Shown here one piece after another: positions 22,936-34,429 of a stretch of DNA of 34,594 nucleotides. Within the stretch, counting starts at the first letter, position 1; each line of letters begins with the position of its first letter. Source of the DNA: Chitinophaga pinensis (GTDB lineage: Bacteria > Bacteroidota > Bacteroidia > Bacteroidales > Prolixibacteraceae); contig CAMDGL010000003.1 of the NCBI GenBank assembly GCA_945897845.1, positions 1 through 34,594 of the forward strand, in the 5' to 3' direction. The notes under the pieces are model-generated. The model was given only the letters and a program-made list of their open reading frames with translations, did not search any database and was not told the DNA's origin. The position numbers and the translations under genes were made by a program.

Positions 22936-23871
22936 TTACCTTGGTCCTAAAAATCTATCACCATTGAAATGGATCATGTGTTCCGGAAATTCCATTATCC
23001 AGACTTCAGTATCCCATGCTATATTACTGGTATGCCGCTTAAATTCAGCAAAATCAGGAAAAGCCGACACATATATTTTACCGGCTTTACAATCAGCGAG
23101 AAGCTTTTCGAGTTCAAACAATCTTTTGGGCGACATGGGGCCATGCGAGGTTACGGCCTCAATCAAATAAAGCCAATTCTTTGATTCATCAAAAATTACC
23201 ACATCGGGCAACTTGCTATGTTCGTTAATCGGGATTCCTAAATTTTCCAATTTGTCCTTATTTAGAATAATATCTTTATTTTCCGTATCACCTAAATATA
23301 AAAGGACAGACCCTTGTGCAAAACGTGATGCAAACTCTTCAACAATTGCCGCAATAACTTCATTGTGTTTGCCCGGAGATAACAGAATTACTACTCCATC
23401 GGGTAAATGGAGCGGAACCCGAGCCATTCCCCTACCCTTACTATACTTATCATTTAGCTCACCAACTTGCTCTTTAAACGACCTGAGAGCCCGGCTCCAT
23501 TTCTTTGTTTTATAAGTTTTGATTGTTTCCAAAGCAATGGTAGATAAGGCATAATGGGCTCTTGGGCTGTTAACCGGCAAATCCGGAAGATCTGGATTAT
23601 AATCAGCTATTCCAGCTTGCACAAATTGGTGTAATACCTGCCTTCTTACAGTTTCTCTGGTATTCGGAGCATATTCTCGTTGGTAGTTTGTTGAAATAAA
23701 TGACATTATTCCTTTCGAAACGCCCAAGCTTTGTTGTTCTGCATTTGACCAATTATCACCTTCTTTGATGTTGCACAATGCCAGTAATGTATAAGCTGAA
23801 ATTTCATTTTGCTGTGCATTAGGCAACCCCAACTCGTGCAAAATCGCCTGAGCTTCCACTATTTTCGTCAT
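22936..23871 (-). CDS. PstI/BsuBI-like type II restriction endonuclease
   Basis: A 311-residue protein matching the BsuBI/PstI restriction endonuclease family in length and motifs. The C-terminal half holds KLPDVVIFDESKNWLYLIEA, continuing with VTSHGPMSPKR (about 221-250). In the family this is the PD-(D/E)xK-like metal site followed by a conserved SHGPxSxKR stretch. RGMARVPLHLPDG (148-159) and SPGKHNEVIAAIVEEF (165-180) are also family-like. The N-terminal half is helical and probably forms the DNA-binding part. Known members cut CTGCAG; this specificity is an inference. Its start lies inside the methyltransferase gene, with a 53-nt overlap. That order (M then R) lets protection precede cutting. 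Confidence 0.9.
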   Translation of the reverse strand: MTKIVEAQAILHELGLPNAQQNEISAYTLLALCNIKEGDNWSNAEQQSLGVSKGIMSFISTNYQREYAPNTRETVRRQVLHQFVQAGIADYNPDLPDLPVNSPRAHYALSTIALETIKTYKTKKWSRALRSFKEQVGELNDKYSKGRGMARVPLHLPDGVVILLSPGKHNEVIAAIVEEFASRFAQGSVLLYLGDTENKDIILNKDKLENLGIPINEHSKLPDVVIFDESKNWLYLIEAVTSHGPMSPKRLFELEKLLADCKAGKIYVSAFPDFAEFKRHTSNIAWDTEVWIMEFPEHMIHFNGDRFLGPR

Positions 23872-25414
23872 ATTGATTTACTAATAAAGTTTCGTTTATG
23901 ATCTTGTCAATGTCATTTCTTCTCGGTGTCACCAATCGTTTAACTGCTTGTCCAATCGCAATTAGCTGATGGTATGGAGGCATTTTTATTTGTTTTAATT
24001 CTGAAGCGCCTACCTGAGTATTCCCGTTAAATGTTCTGAAGTAAGTATCAAAAAGGCTGCTATTAAACAGCGCTGAAATTCCCCAAACTTCATCGTCAGA
24101 AAGTTCTCCGTTGGGTCGATAAATGTAATTCAGATGATTTTCGATGCCTAACCATTCAGAACTTGCATTTGATGCAAAGTATGGTGCGCATACCAATCTG
24201 CTCTTATCGTCTTTTGAACTAAACCTCCGGATCAATATATAATTCCTATTTCTCAGTAACAATTTACGACTGGCCTCCGAATGAATGATATAACTCTGTT
24301 TTTCGCCCTTTTTTAATGGAAAAACAAACTCCATTTCCTTGATATTGTGCAACCAAAGCAATGGCACCAATGTAAACTCGTTGTTAAAATCAGAGATCAG
24401 AAATTCAAGGCTTCTGAACGCGACAACCGGGCCTGTCGAGATTTGAATATTGTAATCGTTCAACGAGTTTTTCCAATTCTTAAAAACATGAATTGTGTCT
24501 TTTTCAACAGAGTTGGATGGTATAAAAAGTATCTTTTCCCTTGAGTTTAAATCGATCAGCTCTTCCGTTTTAAAGACTGATACATTAGATGAATTCATAT
24601 CTTTTTCGCATTCAGAAACTGAAAGTTTAATCGTATTGCTTCGTTTCTTAGTGGCCCGGATTATAACATTTTCCTGAAGTACATTATCACCTTTAAACAT
24701 TTTATTTCTTGACTCAAAAATGTGAATATCGGCGATACTGACTTCTGCAAAAAAGAAATTTCGAAATGCTTTGAAATAATTACCGGCTGCAAAGCTTCTG
24801 GGAGTAATAATTATCAATTCACCCACAGGGTTAAGCAGACGAGCTGAAACGCCCATAAATAATGCATAAATATTCGGTTGACCGTAAACCAACTCATCTG
24901 CAATTTGGGCACGACTATCTGACTTAGATATTTTAAAATAGGGTGGATTTGAAATGACGTAATCATATTTGCTTACAGCATGGCTACCGAAAAGTGTATT
25001 AGGAGCAAAGACTGCCGAATTGGATAGAATAAAATCTTCTTGTATCAAAATAATATTTAACTCGATTTGCTTTTTGTGCAGCCAATTTTTCAGAAATGAA
25101 ATGACCTTGTGAAGCTCTTTGATCATATTAGAATCTGTCTCATACAGTTGTAAATCGATTTTGGTAATTCTACCTTTTTCAACCAGATTTTCGATCAGGC
25201 AACAACTTAAAATAGCCATCCCACAACCAGGATCGAGTATAGAAACGTGATCAGATTTGTGCTGGGCCAATTTACCCATGTAATCAGCAATCAACTTTGA
25301 AGTAAAAAACTGGCCACTCGATTTTTTGTGCAAATCTGTAGTCAAAACTGAATAGTTCAGTCCTACTTTTTCAGCATATTCCGACGGTAATATATTTATT
25401 TGATGTTCTCTCAT
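23819..25414 (-). CDS. N6-adenine DNA methyltransferase, PstI-like
   Basis: A 531-residue DNA methyltransferase. Motif X is GQFFTSKLIADYM (34-46), motif I is ILDPGCGMAILSC (59-71) for S-adenosylmethionine, and motif IV is SNPPYFKIS (155-163). NPPY marks N6-adenine methylation of the gamma class. The C-terminal half (330-531) is the target-recognition domain, with NTQVGASELKQIKMPPY near its end. The size fits M.PstI/M.BsuBI-like enzymes that protect CTGCAG. It is the first gene of the pair with the endonuclease. The start at 25414 is required to include motif X and lies almost at the predicted transcription start (see promoter). Confidence 0.9.
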   Translation of the reverse strand: MREHQINILPSEYAEKVGLNYSVLTTDLHKKSSGQFFTSKLIADYMGKLAQHKSDHVSILDPGCGMAILSCCLIENLVEKGRITKIDLQLYETDSNMIKELHKVISFLKNWLHKKQIELNIILIQEDFILSNSAVFAPNTLFGSHAVSKYDYVISNPPYFKISKSDSRAQIADELVYGQPNIYALFMGVSARLLNPVGELIIITPRSFAAGNYFKAFRNFFFAEVSIADIHIFESRNKMFKGDNVLQENVIIRATKKRSNTIKLSVSECEKDMNSSNVSVFKTEELIDLNSREKILFIPSNSVEKDTIHVFKNWKNSLNDYNIQISTGPVVAFRSLEFLISDFNNEFTLVPLLWLHNIKEMEFVFPLKKGEKQSYIIHSEASRKLLLRNRNYILIRRFSSKDDKSRLVCAPYFASNASSEWLGIENHLNYIYRPNGELSDDEVWGISALFNSSLFDTYFRTFNGNTQVGASELKQIKMPPYHQLIAIGQAVKRLVTPRRNDIDKIINETLLVNQYDENSGSSGDFARVGVA

Positions 25415-25719: not shown

Positions 25720-27972
25720 ATGAGTACTAATAAACTTTACCTGCCAATCACGCTGGCAATATTGATGATCGTGTCGGGCTGTCAGAAAAAAACAGAAAAC
25801 CTAATTCAATATGTCAATCCGTTAATCGGAACAGGGCCATCAACTGGCCCCGGTGGTTTAAAACACAATCAAGGTTCCGAATCATGGGGCCAGGATATAC
25901 CGGCGGTTGCAACTCCGTTTGGAATGACACAATGGACTCCTCAAACACGCGACAGTGAAAACAAATGCGTTTCACCTTATTATTTTGGCGCTGGAAATCT
26001 TCAGGGATTCAGGGGAACACACTGGTTAGGAGGTTCGTGCACCCAGGACTATGGTAGTTTTACCATTATGCCGATGACAGGTTATTTACGCACTTTTGCC
26101 GTCGATCGTGCTGCAAGTTACATGCACGATAACGAAACATCTACCCCGGCTTATTATTCGTGTTTACTTCAGAAATACCTCACTTTTGTTGAAATTACAA
26201 GTACTGCCCGTGCCGGATTTTTCAGGTTTTCATACGTGCAAAAAGATCAGGCCATCATTCTGATTACCCCAAACAGCGACGAAGGAAAGGGATATATAAA
26301 AGTTGATCCTGAAAAACAGGAAATTTACGGTTACAATCCTGTTCATCGGATCTATCAGGGTTGGGGAGAGCCGGCAGGTTTCAGCGGATATTTTGTAGTC
26401 AGGTTCAACAGGCCATTGGAAAATTACGGATGTTACTACCAGATGGAAGATTTAAAAAAACAAACAGAGATTTCAGGAAAACCTGATATTGGCGCTTATG
26501 CGCGTTTCAGCGTCACTGAAAAAGATGTGATACTCGCAAAAGTTGGTACTTCGTTTACCAGCCTCGAAGCGGCCCGTGCCAACCTTGACGCAGAAATACC
26601 GCATTGGGAGTTTGAAAAAACCAAAGCCGAAACCGAACAAATCTGGAATGAATCATTGTCGGCCATTAAACTGAAAGGTGGCAAGACCGAAGATTTAACC
26701 AAATTTTATACTGCGATGTATCATTCCATGCTTTACCCGCGCACATTCAGCAATGTGGATGGTACCTACCCCGAATTTGACGGGAATAAATCAATCAAAA
26801 AAGTTGAAGACGGACATGTTTATTACGACGATTTCTCATTGTGGGACACCTTCAGGGCTCAACTTCCACTGGTAAGCCTAATTGCTCCTGATAAATATGA
26901 AGACATGATGAAATCGCTCGTTCTGAAAGCAGAACAGGGAGGTTGGATGCCTATTTTCCCGATGTGGAACAGCTATACTTCAGCGATGATCGGCGACCAT
27001 GCCAACACCGCTTTGGGCGACGCTTACCTCAAAGGTTTCGATATCGATATTGACCGTGCCTGGCCGTACATGCGGAAAAATGCTTTTGAGATTCCGTCAT
27101 ACGAAGACTTTAACAACGGTAAGGGACGCAGAGCAATTATGTCGTATCTCGAAAATGGATATATTCCGCTTGAAGACAGTGTAAAAGAAGCTTTCCACAA
27201 AATGGAACAGACCTCGCGCACATTGGAATATGCCATGACCGACGATGTGCTTTCGAAAGTTGCATCGAAATACGGAAAAACAGAAGATGCCCAAATGCTG
27301 GCCAAACGCGGGCAGAATTACCAAAATGTTTTCGACGATGAAACCAAAAGCATGCGTGGCCGCCATCTCGATGGAACCTGGAGCAAAGATTATAATCCGC
27401 TTGCGCGTGCATCGTACCTCACCGAAGGGACTCCAATGCAACATTTGTGGTTTGTTCCGCAGGATATTCCGGGATTATTCGATCTGATTGGCGATCAAAA
27501 ACAAGTTCGTGAAAAGCTGGATGAACTCTTTGATACCGGCGAATACTGGCATTCGAACGAACCTTGCCACCACATCCCCTATTTGTACAATTATCTGGGC
27601 GATCCGGCTGAAACACAGCGAAAAGTAAAGAACATTCTGGCAACCGAATACACTGCTTATGATGGAGGAATCCCCGGGAACGACGACTCAGGCCAAACTT
27701 CGGCATGGTATGTATTTTCGGCCATGGGCTTTTATCCTGTTTCGCCCGGAAGTGGCGAATACCAGCTGTCCTCTCCTATTTTTACTGAAGTTGAATTAAA
27801 CCTGAACCCAAAATATTATCCGGGAAAGAAATTCAAAATCAGTCTCGACGATCCGGATACCTCAAAAACTTTCGACAAAGTGGAGTTGAATGGCAAGGAA
27901 AGTCAGTTTGTACTGAAACATGAAGACATACGAAAGGGCGGAAAATTGGAATTCTCAAATTCTGTAAAATAA
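25720..27972 (+). CDS. GH92 alpha-mannosidase lipoprotein
   Basis: A 750-residue GH92 family glycosidase. The N-terminus (LPITLAILMIVSGC) is a lipoprotein signal with Cys21, so it is anchored to a membrane, probably the outer one. The beta-sandwich domain starts at YVNPLIGTGP. The (alpha/alpha)6 domain shows FYTAMYHSMLYPRTFSNVDG, YYDDFSLWDTFRAQLPLV, YLTEGTPMQHLWFVPQD with the expected general acid Glu569, HSNEPCHHIPYLYNYLGDP, and GIPGNDDSGQTSAWYVFSAM with the general base among Asp655/Asp656. The family uses calcium and inverts; most members act on alpha-1,2- or other alpha-mannosides of N-glycans or yeast mannan. Specificity cannot be told here. It converges on the LytTR regulator with 8 bp between stops and no terminator. 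Confidence 0.95.
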   Translation: MSTNKLYLPITLAILMIVSGCQKKTENLIQYVNPLIGTGPSTGPGGLKHNQGSESWGQDIPAVATPFGMTQWTPQTRDSENKCVSPYYFGAGNLQGFRGTHWLGGSCTQDYGSFTIMPMTGYLRTFAVDRAASYMHDNETSTPAYYSCLLQKYLTFVEITSTARAGFFRFSYVQKDQAIILITPNSDEGKGYIKVDPEKQEIYGYNPVHRIYQGWGEPAGFSGYFVVRFNRPLENYGCYYQMEDLKKQTEISGKPDIGAYARFSVTEKDVILAKVGTSFTSLEAARANLDAEIPHWEFEKTKAETEQIWNESLSAIKLKGGKTEDLTKFYTAMYHSMLYPRTFSNVDGTYPEFDGNKSIKKVEDGHVYYDDFSLWDTFRAQLPLVSLIAPDKYEDMMKSLVLKAEQGGWMPIFPMWNSYTSAMIGDHANTALGDAYLKGFDIDIDRAWPYMRKNAFEIPSYEDFNNGKGRRAIMSYLENGYIPLEDSVKEAFHKMEQTSRTLEYAMTDDVLSKVASKYGKTEDAQMLAKRGQNYQNVFDDETKSMRGRHLDGTWSKDYNPLARASYLTEGTPMQHLWFVPQDIPGLFDLIGDQKQVREKLDELFDTGEYWHSNEPCHHIPYLYNYLGDPAETQRKVKNILATEYTAYDGGIPGNDDSGQTSAWYVFSAMGFYPVSPGSGEYQLSSPIFTEVELNLNPKYYPGKKFKISLDDPDTSKTFDKVELNGKESQFVLKHEDIRKGGKLEFSNSVK

Positions 27973-27980
27973 CAATTGAG

Positions 27981-28715
27981 TTACACACCTGCCACCGAAC
28001 CGGTAAAATTCAAGGCACTTAATACCGCATTCTTGTAATTCCGTCCAATTGGTAGTTCTTTACCCTGAATTTCAATTGTATTGGCAGTAAATGCTTCTAT
28101 CTTGCTGACCGAAACAATGTATGATTTGTGAATCCGGAGAAAGTTTTCAGCGGGCAGTTTCTCTTCCATTAAAGTCATGCTGGTTTTGGTAATGATCTTA
28201 CGTTTATCGGTGTAAATCTGAACATATTCGCTTAATCCTTCAATGAACCTGATTTCGGAGAGATACAATTTTACAACCTTTTTATTTTCTTTCACATAAA
28301 TAAAACTTTCTTCCTGAACTTTTTCCGAAGTAGAATTGGAACCCACCTGAACTTCGTCCTGATTCATCTGATAAAACTTGTTTACAGACTTCAGGAAGCG
28401 CTCAAAAGTGATGGGTTTCAGTAAATAATCGACCACATCCAGTTCAAAACCTTCCAAGGCATATTCGCGGTAAGCCGTGGTAATAATCACTTTCGGCGGA
28501 TGTTTCAGTGTTTTAAGAAATTCGATGCCGGTAATCTGAGGCATTTGAATGTCCATAAATACCAGATCAACATGCTTTTCGCGTAATACGCCCAATGCTT
28601 TCATTGCATCGCTGCATTCAGCAACAATTTCAAAATTCTCCAGTTTTTCAACATGTCCACGTATGAGTTCACGTGCCAGCGGCTCATCGTCAACAATCAA
28701 ACATTTTGTCTTCAT
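27981..28715 (-). CDS. LytTR-family response regulator
   Basis: A 244-residue regulator. The receiver domain (1-115) has the acidic pair Asp9-Asp10, phospho-acceptor Asp55 in FMDIQMP, the switch Thr in IITTAY (about 79-82) and Lys100 in LLKP. The LytTR DNA-binding domain covers about 135-240 (FIYVKENKKVVKLYLSEIRF, FLRIHKSYIVSVSKIEAF, ELPIGRNYK). It is the last gene of a five-gene operon and begins 4 nt after the ACE-like lipoprotein gene. It should be phosphorylated by the LytS-type kinases upstream. All key residues are present. Target genes are unknown. Confidence 0.95.
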   Translation of the reverse strand: MKTKCLIVDDEPLARELIRGHVEKLENFEIVAECSDAMKALGVLREKHVDLVFMDIQMPQITGIEFLKTLKHPPKVIITTAYREYALEGFELDVVDYLLKPITFERFLKSVNKFYQMNQDEVQVGSNSTSEKVQEESFIYVKENKKVVKLYLSEIRFIEGLSEYVQIYTDKRKIITKTSMTLMEEKLPAENFLRIHKSYIVSVSKIEAFTANTIEIQGKELPIGRNYKNAVLSALNFTGSVAGV

Positions 28716-28719
28716 AGTG

Positions 28720-30465
28720 TCACAATTTATTCGTTTCGGTTTTCTGCTTCAACTGATTGACAAAATACATCGAATTCAACGGTTCGCCTGTCGCCTTTTC
28801 GATCAGTTTTTCCCAGGGTAAAAGGTTACCGTAGCGGTAAAGATTATCTTTCAAATACTGTCCAACAGCTTTATTATTCGTATAAACACCACTCGTTTGC
28901 TTTATGACGCGGCTTTCGATGGAATGTTGCAGTTGAGCAGCAAAAACATCGGCAATTAAAACATTGTGGGTTGAACACGACAGGCTGGTTGCAAACTTAT
29001 TGGCCGCCCAAACACCGGAATTCCTTTCAGCTGGATAACTGATTCCCAAATATTTGAGGTTAAGTTTGTACCACAACGAATCCAGATCCTGATAAGGATT
29101 CCGGTAAATTTCCTGCTCAAAGTCTGACAGGGCAAGCAATTTACGGCATCTGAACAACTGATCGACTTGCTGCAAATGCTGACAAACCAACACAATCTCT
29201 TTCTGGTTTTCCTCATTAAGATTTAACTCATTTTTCAGCCAACTGTAATCCGATGCGAGGTTTTCGAAATATCTGGCGACCCCTTCATAAATAACCGGAA
29301 TCGGAGTTTTCAGCAAATACGGAATATCATCAGGAATAGAACTGTAATGAGATGCATGTCCGCCAAGGTGCATCATTCGGTACATTCCTTTGTGCGTATT
29401 CTGAATACCGGAAATCAGGCGAATGTCGTTTTTAAAATCCACATTGATCATGGCGTTTAAGGATGACTTTTCCGGACGGTATGCCAAATCGCTGTTATCA
29501 ATCACATCCTGGATGGGCAGGCCAATTCCTTCATAAAACTCAGCAGTTTTCTGAATCGGATCAATATCTGTAAAAAGCGAATCCATTTTTGCACTATATT
29601 TCTCAGGCAGATAACCGGTGCGCTCATTGTTGTAATGCCAGGGCTTTAATTCGGTCACCTGAATTTTGAAACGATCTGCCAGCAACTTATCAATTTCCCG
29701 TTTTGCCTCAAAGAACAGATCTCTGGTATTCATTTCAATTTCATCAATCATCCGTTTAATCTTTTGCGGAGTCTGATCTTTCGATTCTAGCGAGAGTGTG
29801 TAATAATCGGGATACCCAAAATTAGCGGCGAATTCATTTCGATCTTTAACCATCCTGATAATATCAGGGGCTAAAATCTTGCCTTTCTGCTGGTAAGCCT
29901 CAAAAATACGCTTCCGTACAGATTCATCATTGGTATGTTTCTGAATGGAATCAATTTTACCGGCACCATATTTTTTACCGTCAATTTCAATTTTCAGTAC
30001 TGAAAATACCTGCCACAATTTCAATTCATTTGATATGAGCTTCTGATATTTTTCGGGTTCTATCTGTGGCCCCATAAATGCCTGATAAAGAACATTCAAC
30101 TGGCGAATCAGCAAGGTGTCGGTAATCAATTCTGAATATTTTAATTTTCTGAGAAGCTGAAAATCCTCCTCGTTGGTAAATACATTTTGGGTGATTGACG
30201 AAAACCTGTCGGGATTAAAAAAATTGGAATCTTTTTGATTGGTTTTATTGAATTCGAGATCGATATCAATTAACTTTTGGTAATCTTTCTCGTTGCCCGA
30301 AACAGTGGCGTTCCACAATGCAACCGCACTTTCCATCGAATAATTCCTTATCAGGTCAACCTTCTGATCGATATAATGCTGCAGAATTTTTTCGGCCTGT
30401 TGTTTTTGATTCATGCAGGCAGAAAGCGCAAAAAACAATCCTATGGTAAAGAGAATCTTACGCAT
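28720..30465 (-). CDS. M2 (ACE-like) peptidase homologue lipoprotein, catalytic Glu missing
   Basis: A 581-residue lipoprotein (signal ILFTIGLFFALSAC, Cys17) with the all-helical fold pattern of the M2 angiotensin-converting-enzyme family. Its zinc motif reads HLGGH (366-370) where active enzymes have HExxH; His366, His370 and a third acidic ligand, Glu394 in YEGVARYFENL, remain. The His366-Glu394 spacing of 28 equals that of ACE (His383-Glu411, from memory). The catalytic Glu is Leu367, so hydrolysis is unlikely though zinc may still bind. The C-terminal half (GNLLPWEKLIEKATGEPL) is typical of the family. It overlaps the kinase gene upstream by 8 nt and sits 4 nt before the regulator gene, so it probably senses or modulates. 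Confidence 0.85.
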   Translation of the reverse strand: MRKILFTIGLFFALSACMNQKQQAEKILQHYIDQKVDLIRNYSMESAVALWNATVSGNEKDYQKLIDIDLEFNKTNQKDSNFFNPDRFSSITQNVFTNEEDFQLLRKLKYSELITDTLLIRQLNVLYQAFMGPQIEPEKYQKLISNELKLWQVFSVLKIEIDGKKYGAGKIDSIQKHTNDESVRKRIFEAYQQKGKILAPDIIRMVKDRNEFAANFGYPDYYTLSLESKDQTPQKIKRMIDEIEMNTRDLFFEAKREIDKLLADRFKIQVTELKPWHYNNERTGYLPEKYSAKMDSLFTDIDPIQKTAEFYEGIGLPIQDVIDNSDLAYRPEKSSLNAMINVDFKNDIRLISGIQNTHKGMYRMMHLGGHASHYSSIPDDIPYLLKTPIPVIYEGVARYFENLASDYSWLKNELNLNEENQKEIVLVCQHLQQVDQLFRCRKLLALSDFEQEIYRNPYQDLDSLWYKLNLKYLGISYPAERNSGVWAANKFATSLSCSTHNVLIADVFAAQLQHSIESRVIKQTSGVYTNNKAVGQYLKDNLYRYGNLLPWEKLIEKATGEPLNSMYFVNQLKQKTETNKL

Positions 30466-31540
30466 TTATTTCAGGAGTTTGGGTACAGTTTTTCATGATT
30501 GCCAGACGAACGAAAAACACACAATTTTCTTTCCTGATCTCTAATTCATGATTTTTGGGATAGATCAGTTCAAGTCGCCTTTTGATGTTTGTAAGGCCAA
30601 CGCCTTCTTCAATTTCATTACCGAAACACTTTGATTTCGGAATGCTGTTGGAAGCCTCGAACTCAAAAATATTGCCGCGCACCCTGATCAGAAGTTTGAT
30701 CCAGGGAGATTCGGGATCGGGGCTGCTGCCGTGTTTAAAGCAATTTTCGATAAATGTATAGAGCAGCATCGGGGGAATCAGACAATCCGGATTATCAACA
30801 TCCTTTTCAAAAGTGAACGAAAGCCGGTCGGAATAACGCAATTCTTCGAGCTGAATGTAATCTTCAATAAGCTTAATCTCTTTCTTAACAGGCACTTCAA
30901 TGGCATTGCACTCGTATAAAATATAATGAAAAAGATCAGCCATTTTGGAAATGACAATCGGGGTTTTATCGCTTTTTTGGAGTGCCAGAACGTATAAATT
31001 ATTGAAGGTATTGAAAAGAAAATGAGGATTTAACTGCGCTTTCAGTACCTGCAATTCTGAAGCCAGATGTTTTCGTTCGGCTTCATTGGCAAGGTTTCTG
31101 AAATTCAACCAGTTTTTGTAATACTTAAACATTGCAAACAGAATAGCAGGACCCAAAATCCAGATCAGGTTCCGAAAAAATATATCTGCATTAAACCATT
31201 CTGTCGGATGTAAAACCTCCGGGATGAACAATGCATAATAAACATATCTGCCGGTTAAAATCCTTAAACAAGCTGCTGCGCATGCCGCAAAGGCAAGTGC
31301 CAGGAAAAACTGCCAGTACTTGCGGTTCAGGAGAAAAGCAGGAACCAGAAAATAAACTACACCATAAGTAAAAAACACAAATACCGGCAAATGAACCAGG
31401 AAATTCAGAAGGTAAAAAGAATATGGAAAATTTTGCTGGTAACTAAATATGAATGATCCGATCAGCACAAAGAATGTCCAAAACACAAGGTGAATCACCG
31501 GGCGTTTATTCAGGAATTGATAGATAGTTTTTAATGCCAT
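30458..31540 (-). CDS. LytS-type sensor histidine kinase
   Basis: A 360-residue membrane kinase. About four transmembrane helices lie in residues 15-140 with short loops and no large sensor domain. The His_kinase domain follows: AQLNPHFLFNTFNNLYVLAL with the phospho-acceptor His173, the N-box FIENCFKHG with Asn266, and EEGVGLTNIKRRLELIYP as the G-box. All required residues are present, so it should be active. It starts 10 nt inside the end of the pseudokinase gene and ends 8 nt inside the lipoprotein gene, indicating translational coupling along the operon. The signal sensed is unknown. Confidence 0.93.
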   Translation of the reverse strand: MALKTIYQFLNKRPVIHLVFWTFFVLIGSFIFSYQQNFPYSFYLLNFLVHLPVFVFFTYGVVYFLVPAFLLNRKYWQFFLALAFAACAAACLRILTGRYVYYALFIPEVLHPTEWFNADIFFRNLIWILGPAILFAMFKYYKNWLNFRNLANEAERKHLASELQVLKAQLNPHFLFNTFNNLYVLALQKSDKTPIVISKMADLFHYILYECNAIEVPVKKEIKLIEDYIQLEELRYSDRLSFTFEKDVDNPDCLIPPMLLYTFIENCFKHGSSPDPESPWIKLLIRVRGNIFEFEASNSIPKSKCFGNEIEEGVGLTNIKRRLELIYPKNHELEIRKENCVFFVRLAIMKNCTQTPEINA

Positions 31541-32583
31541 GGCTCGATATTGATTTCGATGGACACTTCCACAAAGTTAATTTCAAAATTCGACATGACC
31601 TTGTGATTTTCAGGATAAAAATAGTCAAGGTATTTTCGGCAGTTTTCAATAACCACGGTATTAAACTGTTTGCCAAGCAAACGATCGTTCCAAATTGTCA
31701 TCGAAAACAGAAGATGTTGAGGCTCTGTTCTAATAAGTACGGAATAATCTGTACTGTTTTCAGATTCATCCAGAATCATAAACCCTTCTTCGACCAATTG
31801 GAAGAAAAGAAACCGAGGAATCAGGATGCCATTCAATTCACCGGAAACATGAAAATTGACATCATAATCATCAGGTAAACTCATCAGTTGAATGTCGATG
31901 TAACCTTTGATTAAGTCAACTTCCTTCTGAAGTAAAATTCGATCCGATCGGTCATCTGAAATCATGCTGTTCATCAGATTCGATAAACGAATGATCATCT
32001 CCGGTGTTTGTGGTGAATGATTCTTTGCCAGATCCTCAAGTTTGTCTGCCACGTTCAGAAGAAATCGGGGATACGACTGGATTTTAAGGAGTTCAATCTC
32101 TGTTGACAATTTTCTGTTCAGTAAATCAGTCTTCTCGCCCATTTTCAAATTCCAAAAACGGACCACTTTTACCGACAGAAAAACTATGATAATATATTCG
32201 TTTCCCAAACCGTTGATCAGGATATTCTGCCAGCCAAAATAATTACCCGGTTGCTTATTCTCAGGTTTTACCAGCGCCCATACCACTTCGTTGCTGATAA
32301 GCATCTCAAGGATTGATGCAATAATAAGCAAAACAATGATCCACAGCGCAAATAATCCATAGCGAGGTCTGAAAAAATATGCCGGAACAAGCCAGTATGC
32401 AATAAGGTATGTGTGCGCCATGAATAAAGGAAGTGTTACCAGATAATAGACTAACCAGGCCATAAAATCATGCATTCCAAAGCCAAAACTTTGAATGAAA
32501 GTAAAACCAAAAATCCAGCACATCCAGAAAATGGTGTGTTGTGTCACCCGTTTTTTATCGATATGTATTGAAAATTCAGTCAT
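31531..32583 (-). CDS. LytS-type pseudokinase
   Basis: A 350-residue paralogue of its two neighbours with the same four-helix membrane region (about 15-140) and the same domain spacing. The expected NPHFLFN box is YPRFLLN (171-177): Arg173 replaces the phospho-acceptor His. The N-box ENCFKHG has become EEGFMIL (265-271), losing the Asn that holds Mg-ATP, and the Gly-rich G-box is missing. The ending YFYPENHKVM still aligns with the kinases' IYPKNHELE. The reading frame is intact over its whole length, so this looks like a maintained inactive partner and not decay. It could heterodimerise with the flanking kinases. It begins 6 nt after the first kinase gene stop. Confidence 0.88.
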   Translation of the reverse strand: MTEFSIHIDKKRVTQHTIFWMCWIFGFTFIQSFGFGMHDFMAWLVYYLVTLPLFMAHTYLIAYWLVPAYFFRPRYGLFALWIIVLLIIASILEMLISNEVVWALVKPENKQPGNYFGWQNILINGLGNEYIIIVFLSVKVVRFWNLKMGEKTDLLNRKLSTEIELLKIQSYPRFLLNVADKLEDLAKNHSPQTPEMIIRLSNLMNSMISDDRSDRILLQKEVDLIKGYIDIQLMSLPDDYDVNFHVSGELNGILIPRFLFFQLVEEGFMILDESENSTDYSVLIRTEPQHLLFSMTIWNDRLLGKQFNTVVIENCRKYLDYFYPENHKVMSNFEINFVEVSIEINIEPWH

Positions 32584-32589
32584 TTCAAT

Positions 32590-33645
32590 TTAGCTAAGTT
32601 CCAAATCAAGTTTAACTGTAAATTCCTGTTCTTTTGGCTGCACAACCAAACTGTATTTCTTTGGATAGATTAAATCCAGACGTTGCCTTAATCTTACAAG
32701 GCCCTGATTTTCTGACGCTTGAACCAATAGAATTTTCTTTGGCATACTGTTTTTTGTCTCAACGGAAAGTCTGTTTTTTTTACAATTCAAACTAAGTTCG
32801 ATCCACGGATTACCGGCGTCAGTGCTGCTTCCATGTTTAAAGCAATTCTCGATCAGGGAAAACAATACGAATGGGGCAATTACCTGTTGACTGATTTCAC
32901 CTTTTACATTGTTAATCAGATGTAGCCGTGAACCATAACGCAATAACTCTATCCGGATATAATCCTGAATCATGGCTATTTCGTTGTTCAGAAGAACTTT
33001 TTCTTGCTGGGCATCCACAATTGCAAAATGCAGCACTCGTTTAAGTCTGCAAATCAAATCCAATGTTTCATCAAAATTACGGAGCGACAATGCGTATAAA
33101 TTATTGAGCGTATTGAACAGAAAATGTGGTTCAAAATGATTTTGCAATAATTTCAGGTTCAGCCCGGCATATTTTTTTTGCAATATTTTGTGTTGCTTTT
33201 CGGCTATCAGCCAGTCTTTGCTAAATTTTGCAATCACAAACAATGCAACAATAAACGACATGTCTTTTGTATTGATCAGGATAAACCGGACACTGAGCAT
33301 TCCTTTGGAACCAATGAATTCAGGAGAAATGGCTGAATAAAAAATATAGTCCGAAACACTCAGCTTGATTGCCGACAGCACTAATCCAAGCGAAAGGAAG
33401 GAGACTGAGAACAATACATATTTTCTTCGAAGTACGAGGAATGGAATTAGAATGAAAATGGTGAGATATCCATATCCAAGAAAAATAAGCGCATTGATGA
33501 AAGTGAGGTTCAGTTGGTACAAAAAAGGCTGGTCGCTGTTCCTGCTGTAAAGAACAAGCGTGAAAACAAGCACCACAATGGTAAAAAAAACGATGTGTCT
33601 GCTTATCCTGAATTTCAGGGCATTATCAAACAAAAATTTATTCAT
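32590..33645 (-). CDS. LytS-type sensor histidine kinase, first of operon
   Basis: A 351-residue membrane kinase with about four transmembrane helices (15-140), a short coiled linker (EKQHKILQKKYAGLNLKLL) and the LytS His_kinase domain: FEPHFLFNTLNNLYALSL with His174, the N-box LIENCFKHGSS, and a reduced G-box (ENQGLVRLRQRLDLIYP). Catalytic residues look complete, although the G-box is less Gly-rich than in the third gene. It is the first gene of the five-gene operon ending with the LytTR regulator. The 292 bp upstream to 33937 shows no exact TAnnTTTG box on this strand and contains only the terminator of the next gene. Confidence 0.93.
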   Translation of the reverse strand: MNKFLFDNALKFRISRHIVFFTIVVLVFTLVLYSRNSDQPFLYQLNLTFINALIFLGYGYLTIFILIPFLVLRRKYVLFSVSFLSLGLVLSAIKLSVSDYIFYSAISPEFIGSKGMLSVRFILINTKDMSFIVALFVIAKFSKDWLIAEKQHKILQKKYAGLNLKLLQNHFEPHFLFNTLNNLYALSLRNFDETLDLICRLKRVLHFAIVDAQQEKVLLNNEIAMIQDYIRIELLRYGSRLHLINNVKGEISQQVIAPFVLFSLIENCFKHGSSTDAGNPWIELSLNCKKNRLSVETKNSMPKKILLVQASENQGLVRLRQRLDLIYPKKYSLVVQPKEQEFTVKLDLELS

Positions 33646-33937: not shown

Positions 33938-34429
33938 TCAGATTTGTGCCCTGAATTGTTCTTTTATCAGCAATGGGAAATAACACGCAATTAAACCCAA
34001 TAATTCTTCCTCATTTTTTGGATTTTGAGAAATCACCCTTTGTGCATAATACTGCGAATTATCCAACATTGCATTAACAGTGGCAAGATCAACTTCACGA
34101 TATTCTTCATTCACCTTTTTTACACCAAATACATGCTTTTTACAAATGTATTCAATTTCAAAATCATCGGTCCTGACAATAAAATTCATACATTTCTTTG
34201 TCTTCTTTACCCCAATCAAAACAGGAGAATCCGACTCGGAATAAACCAATTGGTAAGTATTCAGAAGTTCATTGCCAATGGTGATGGCTTCGGGTGAAAG
34301 ACTGATGGTGTACTGACCTAATTCGGTCAATGACTGCCCGCTAACGACGGTTGTTCCTCTTTCTTTTGCGACGGTGAATAAAGTTACCAGCAGCAAACCA
34401 AATGTTAAAAATGCAAGTTTTGTTTTCAT
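33938..34429 (-). CDS. Small exported protein of unknown function
   Basis: A 163-residue protein I do not recognise. It has a clear signal peptide (KLAFLTFGLLLVTLFTVAKE, cleavage about residue 22) without a lipobox. The mature part is beta-rich at first (GQYTISLSPEAITIGNELL, TYQLVYSESDSPVLIGV), with Cys at KKCMNF and EYICKKH, about 15 residues apart, that could pair. A helical end follows (LATVNAMLDNSQYYAQRV, EEELLGLIACYFPLLIKEQF). It has its own terminator and is probably monocistronic. The 165 bp upstream to the window edge is AT-rich and shows no clear promoter box. Confidence 0.75.
   Translation of the reverse strand: MKTKLAFLTFGLLLVTLFTVAKERGTTVVSGQSLTELGQYTISLSPEAITIGNELLNTYQLVYSESDSPVLIGVKKTKKCMNFIVRTDDFEIEYICKKHVFGVKKVNEEYREVDLATVNAMLDNSQYYAQRVISQNPKNEEELLGLIACYFPLLIKEQFRAQI

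Follow-up and report, generated by a model that had tools for sequence, protein, structure and literature searches.

What is a peptidase-like lipoprotein that has lost its catalytic glutamate doing among the genes of a LytS/LytTR-type two-component system? The question is raised by a locus of the window, the 34,594-nt stretch of Prolixibacteraceae DNA analysed here. An uninterrupted run on its minus strand contains, in this order, the genes HK3 (32590..33645), HK2 (31531..32583), HK1 (30458..31540), an ACE-like lipoprotein of 581 aa (28720..30465; P0001, hereafter pseudo-M2, as identified by ORF, homology and motif reading) and a LytTR response regulator (27981..28715). Neighbouring genes in the run either overlap or lie 4 to 6 nt apart. 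The pseudo-M2 gene overlaps the HK1 gene by 8 nt and is separated from the regulator gene by 4 nt, and the coordinates thus agree with the earlier note, which had described an overlap with a sensor kinase gene and a 4-nt distance to the regulator gene. Pfam assigns PF06580 (His_kinase) to all three genes upstream of pseudo-M2, and Response_reg and LytTR domains to the product of the downstream gene, so that both gene order and domain content bear out the proposed membership in a kinase/regulator operon. HK1, with four predicted TM segments and intact NPHFLFN and ENCFKHG motifs, and HK3, whose motifs are also intact, carry the full set of LytS/LytTR marks (PF06580, the phospho-acceptor His, the N-box and an adjoining LytTR regulator). 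HK2 fails on this count: it has the same fold, but its phospho-acceptor His is replaced by Arg173 (codon 32065-32067) and its N-box is lost. A small exported protein that belongs to no Pfam family, SM163, is encoded at 33938..34429 on the same strand.

The pseudo-M2 lipoprotein has the features expected of an accessory lipoprotein, namely a lipobox signal peptide, an operon shared with the kinase and, as described below, co-inheritance with it. The predicted lipidation site is Cys17 (codon 30415..30417, minus strand; lipobox LSAC), which does not vary among the kinase-linked relatives in the alignment. In Bacteroidota, an acidic stretch after the lipid-bearing Cys is a mark of surface-exported lipoproteins; there is none after Cys17 in P0001, and a periplasmic position is therefore assumed.

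The ancestry of this protein had been read as M2-type, with a search against PF01401 proposed as a check. A direct match above the curated cut-off is absent: Pfam gives for P0001 only PF02074 (M32), in the C-terminal part, with 34.4 bits, and PF01401 is matched at E <= 0.1 by 5 of 14 kinase-linked relatives. The connection was found at the family level, through the closest homologues of P0001 outside kinase operons. These match PF01401 in 14/14 cases, and the profile of these homologues can be aligned with ACE and ACE2 throughout its length (E 1e-31). Moreover, a profile built from eight proteins with an HLxGH motif aligns with this PF01401-positive unlinked clade over 557 columns (E 7e-102), placing HLGGHA opposite HE.GH and YEGVARYF opposite TE.IA.F, the third-ligand segment. 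Because the HLxGH profile aligns with HE.GH in this way, HLGGH occupies the active-site position, as the earlier note had supposed. By homology, then, the pseudo-M2 lipoprotein is a descendant of M2 (ACE-type) peptidases. It resembles M2/ACE (PF01401, with the M3 and M32 relatives) in its end-to-end homology through the unlinked clade, in the zinc-ligand positions and in their 28-residue spacing; unlike these enzymes, it has no direct PF01401 match and is a lipoprotein within a signalling operon. An AlphaFold2 model of P0001, based on an alignment of P0001 and L031 alone, had a mean pLDDT of 31.5, too low to be of use.

In ACE, Glu384 acts as the general base, His513 and Tyr523 stabilize the transition state, and Lys511 and Tyr520 hold the substrate carboxylate. 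We read ten ACE-equivalent positions in 65 aligned homologues, with totals that omit three of the most divergent. In P0001, HLGGH (residues 366-370; 29356..29370, minus strand) stands where active enzymes have HExxH with the catalytic Glu: His366 and His370 are retained and the Glu is replaced by Leu367. The third ligand position (ACE E411) is held by Glu394 (29284..29286, minus strand), which sits 28 residues beyond His366, exactly as in ACE. All three zinc ligands are thus in place, and all six other catalytic or substrate residues checked are altered. Besides Glu384, the equivalents of H353, K511, H513, Y520 and Y523 are Leu336, Asn489, Phe491, Thr499 and Val502, the last four lying in the ancestral substrate/transition-state segment (residues 485-502; 28960..29013, minus strand). 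The HLxGH motif is present in 12 proteins, P0001 among them, so HLGGH is not a chance variant. Throughout this clade H383, H387 and E411 are kept (12/12), E384 is Leu (12/12), and H353, K511, H513 and Y520 are lost (12/12), as is Y523 in 9/12; the unlinked homologues keep all ten positions in 36/36 cases. In a set of 11 members 20.5% of the columns are invariant, including residues 366, 369, 370, 371 and 394, that is, the three ligands, Gly369 and Ala371. The earlier reading of the motif, of the lost Glu and of the ACE-like ligand spacing was therefore correct. As far as active-site residues can tell, the pseudo-M2 of P0001 is catalytically dead. The retention of the ligands together with the loss of the catalytic Glu suggests binding without cutting, and the cleft may still hold zinc.

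We then asked with which gene this protein is inherited. A scan of genome contigs gave a single close relative, and alignment searches gave matches in 24/140 genomes of the same family, 88 of 393 sampled from the order and 31 of 396 from the phylum; the order and phylum surveys are samples in which at most three candidates were scored per genome, so that rarer linked cases are possible elsewhere, and many of the genomes surveyed are draft assemblies. The suggested survey of M2 homologues beside LytS/LytTR genes yielded 20 kinase-linked loci, all in the window's own family, the Prolixibacteraceae. HK1 lies immediately upstream of the M2 gene in every one of them (20/20), usually overlapping it; in the complete g17 loci the M2 gene has no regulator after it. 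Among more than 40 other loci examined, none had a co-directional LytS-type kinase beside the M2 gene, with one exception (L103:4998-10686), where the M2 gene is fully conserved and a propeller-type LytS kinase of 1006 aa and a LytTR regulator come after it; this is possibly an independent M2-kinase pairing.

The distribution of the two genes within the family is the same. HK1 orthologues (at least 384 bits; the next best score was 238) and pseudo-M2 proteins of the HLxGH and ligand-lost clades are found in an identical 15 of the 140 Prolixibacteraceae genomes, and HK1 orthologues are absent from the remaining 125. The formal chance of this 15/15 overlap, about 2e-20, overstates the independence of the observations, because the phyletic match partly reflects shared ancestry. 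In the kinase tree, every lipoprotein-linked HK1 falls into one clade (97/89), the internal order of which largely mirrors the M2 tree. Regulator orthologues, 63-75% identical, extend to further genera that lack the lipoprotein, and 15 loci with high-scoring regulators from other genomes (L125-L139) served as an M2-less comparison set. SM163 and the regulator were present in 15/15 of these, and neither HK1 nor M2 in any. Between SM163 and the regulator, 12/15 contained two or three array kinases, arranged as HK0-HK3-HK2 or HK3-HK2, and 3/15 contained none; HK3 and HK2 are thus variably present across loci. Since the M2-less operons have SM163, the regulator and the array but neither of the other two genes, HK1 and pseudo-M2 are, judging by gene content, a two-gene cassette lying between the kinase array and the regulator. 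The earlier note had proposed the lipoprotein as a partner of the kinases in general; on the strength of the 15/15 co-occurrence and the cassette, the proposed partner is best limited to HK1, and of the other two HK2 is a pseudokinase.

Two other components of the locus deserve mention. The HK2 motif reads YPRFLLN, and the His is missing in all 20 orthologues, including those of M2-less operons; by its motifs HK2 is a conserved dead kinase within the kinase array. SM163 lies beside most such operons whether pseudo-M2 is present or absent, and 119/140 genomes of the family carry it or a relative. Its part in the system could be that of a target or of a ligand. The idea of a regulator target found no support: at lags 20-22, direct repeats of the LytTR type (21 nt) were no commoner upstream of SM163 than in shuffles.

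HK1 itself is predicted to have four hydrophobic segments, joined by loops that do not exceed about 20 residues, and no periplasmic domain, with its phospho-acceptor and ATP-site motifs intact. Having no periplasmic domain of its own, it would receive its signal through the membrane helices and a partner, and the best explanation for an exported partner inherited only with HK1 is that it senses for this kinase or modulates it. We assign a probability of about 0.6 to the reading that pseudo-M2 is a catalytically dead M2-type lipoprotein serving as the dedicated extracytoplasmic partner of HK1. In its best form, this partner would be a repurposed, probably zinc-binding pseudopeptidase that acts as a periplasmic co-sensor. 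Pseudo-M2 would face the periplasm, and its old active-site cleft would bind Zn2+ or another metal and capture a ligand without cutting it, most likely a peptide or a peptide C-terminus, or else the metal itself. The ligand-bound and unbound forms would then differ in their effect, of either sign, on HK1 activity, through a putative contact with the HK1 membrane helices. The target of HK1 phosphorylation would be the neighbouring LytTR regulator, and the array kinases (HK3, the pseudokinase HK2 and, where present, HK0) may feed additional inputs into the same regulator. The most specific version, in which a zinc-dependent, non-cutting peptide receptor made from a peptidase supplies a LytS-type kinase with its outer half and hence represents a new type of receiver, is tentative, with the odds leaning against it.

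The partnership might also do without metal. Pseudo-M2 could act on HK1 as a lipoprotein that needs no metal, in an accessory or inhibitory role, with the M2 body as a scaffold and the His/His/Glu residues in a structural role, by analogy with CseA-CseC. Two kinase-linked members (L042 and L087) have lost the metal ligands wholly or in part and still retain the HK1-M2-RR order, so metal is not essential to every version of the cassette; and CseA, a lipoprotein of a two-component operon, provides a model, in that its loss upregulates the target promoter (PMC6767563). However, the three ligands are invariant in 13/13 members of the main pseudo clade (the 12 HLxGH proteins and L040). Furthermore, a second pseudo-M2 clade of the Bacteroidales, not linked to kinases (L048, L055, L056, L099, L123 and L124), has lost exactly these residues in 6/6 cases, replacing them by Tyr, Phe or Ile, and Asp, and has kept E384, K511, H513, Y520 and Y523, the opposite of the HLxGH pattern. 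This difference between the two routes to inactivation argues that something maintains the ligands in the kinase-linked clade and that they are not merely what the usual decay of the fold leaves behind. We therefore regard a metal-independent role as possible but rather unlikely.

Non-canonical hydrolysis of a peptide or other bond, acting on the signal ahead of the kinase, would likewise make use of the retained zinc ligands, and a sister clade that is also kinase-linked speaks for it. All five of its members (L058, L059 and L088-L090) keep HExxH and E411, and the four complete ones also keep H513 and Y523 and have lost K511, Y520 and H353; they look catalytically competent, with a changed specificity. 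Processing may thus be the ancestral role, and the HExxH of this clade makes an active ancestor of the kinase-linked pseudo-M2 likely. In P0001 and its clade, however, the general-base Glu has become Leu and the equivalents of His513, Lys511, Tyr520 and His353 are all replaced, so that hydrolysis by these proteins is very improbable. One protein of the same genus (L040:6974-8707, minus strand) has HEGGH, with the Glu present though most other catalytic residues are missing. It is nested within the HLxGH clade as the sister of L041 (100/100), and a Leu-to-Glu reversal is therefore the simplest reading.

The pseudo-M2 gene is under purifying selection, with a dN/dS of 0.147 between the window and its nearest relative, which is 92% identical. 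The same pair gives 0.034 for HK1, 0.051 for the regulator, 0.163 for HK2, 0.142 for HK3 and 0.093 for SM163. That pseudo-M2 is no more than the decaying remains of an M2 peptidase gene caught in the operon, as the missing catalytic residues and a deleted M2-regulator chimera in one genome (G003) might suggest, is hardly credible in view of this dN/dS, the full-length ORFs of the relatives, the new signatures MMHLGGHASHY and SLSC conserved among them and the exact co-retention with HK1. In the chimera (L057:6900-8100), an apparent deletion leaves the ~120 N-terminal residues of the lipoprotein fused, in one ORF, with the later part of the regulator; on the same contig SM163 has an internal deletion, and HK1 was not found.

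Systems of the LytS/LytTR type such as BtsS/BtsR and AgrC/AgrA combine a kinase that has a membrane-helix input with a LytTR regulator. The HK1 operon is built alike, but it also encodes a lipoprotein that resembles a peptidase, and its kinase array includes a conserved pseudokinase. Many LytS-type kinases of Bacteroidota consist of just membrane helices and a kinase, and hence the signals they sense are largely unknown. Lipoproteins that modulate a sensor kinase are familiar from enterobacteria (RcsF and NlpE), and none of these two or CseA is, to our knowledge, a pseudopeptidase. CseA, which belongs to a different kinase system, is encoded in the Streptomyces sigE-cseABC operon and has been proposed to modulate the kinase of the same operon (PMC6767563). 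Inactive relatives of ACE are also on record: C. elegans ACN-1 and Drosophila Ance-2 to Ance-5 are ACE-family proteins predicted, like pseudo-M2, to be catalytically inactive, and ACN-1 is essential and has been suggested to bind substrates without cutting them (PMC9518657). Unlike pseudo-M2, these are animal proteins with no tie to a kinase, and ACN-1 lacks several zinc-ligand histidines (PMC9518657), whereas pseudo-M2 keeps the ligands and loses the Glu. A limited, open-licence literature search for histidine kinases accompanied by a pseudopeptidase or pseudoprotease returned nothing relevant, nor did it return a paper combining an inactive ACE relative with a kinase-modulating lipoprotein; within that search, no counterexample turned up to the earlier note, which knew of no described LytS/LytTR system with an M2-like component. 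In other words, inactive ACE relatives in animals and kinase-modulating lipoproteins of the same operon are already known, and their combination, for which we found no precedent, is apparently new.

With a candidate ligand-binding protein inherited alongside it, one LytS-type kinase now has a concrete, purifiable sensor to test. If the receptor reading is true, a living lineage spans members with an intact site, with zinc ligands only and with the ligands lost, all of them kinase-linked. Within this one family, active sites that are intact, partly lost or more fully lost occur at the same place in the operon, which opens each step on the way from enzyme to receptor to a separate test.

The surroundings of the operon offer two minor observations. 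In the window it is bordered by a GH92 glycosidase gene (25720-27972, plus strand), and a GH92 gene also lies near the related operon in six other loci (L042, L057, L127, L131, L137 and L138). Further along, on the minus strand at 22936-25414, a BsuBI/PstI-type restriction endonuclease gene is found together with an overlapping gene for an Eco57I-type/N6 DNA methylase.
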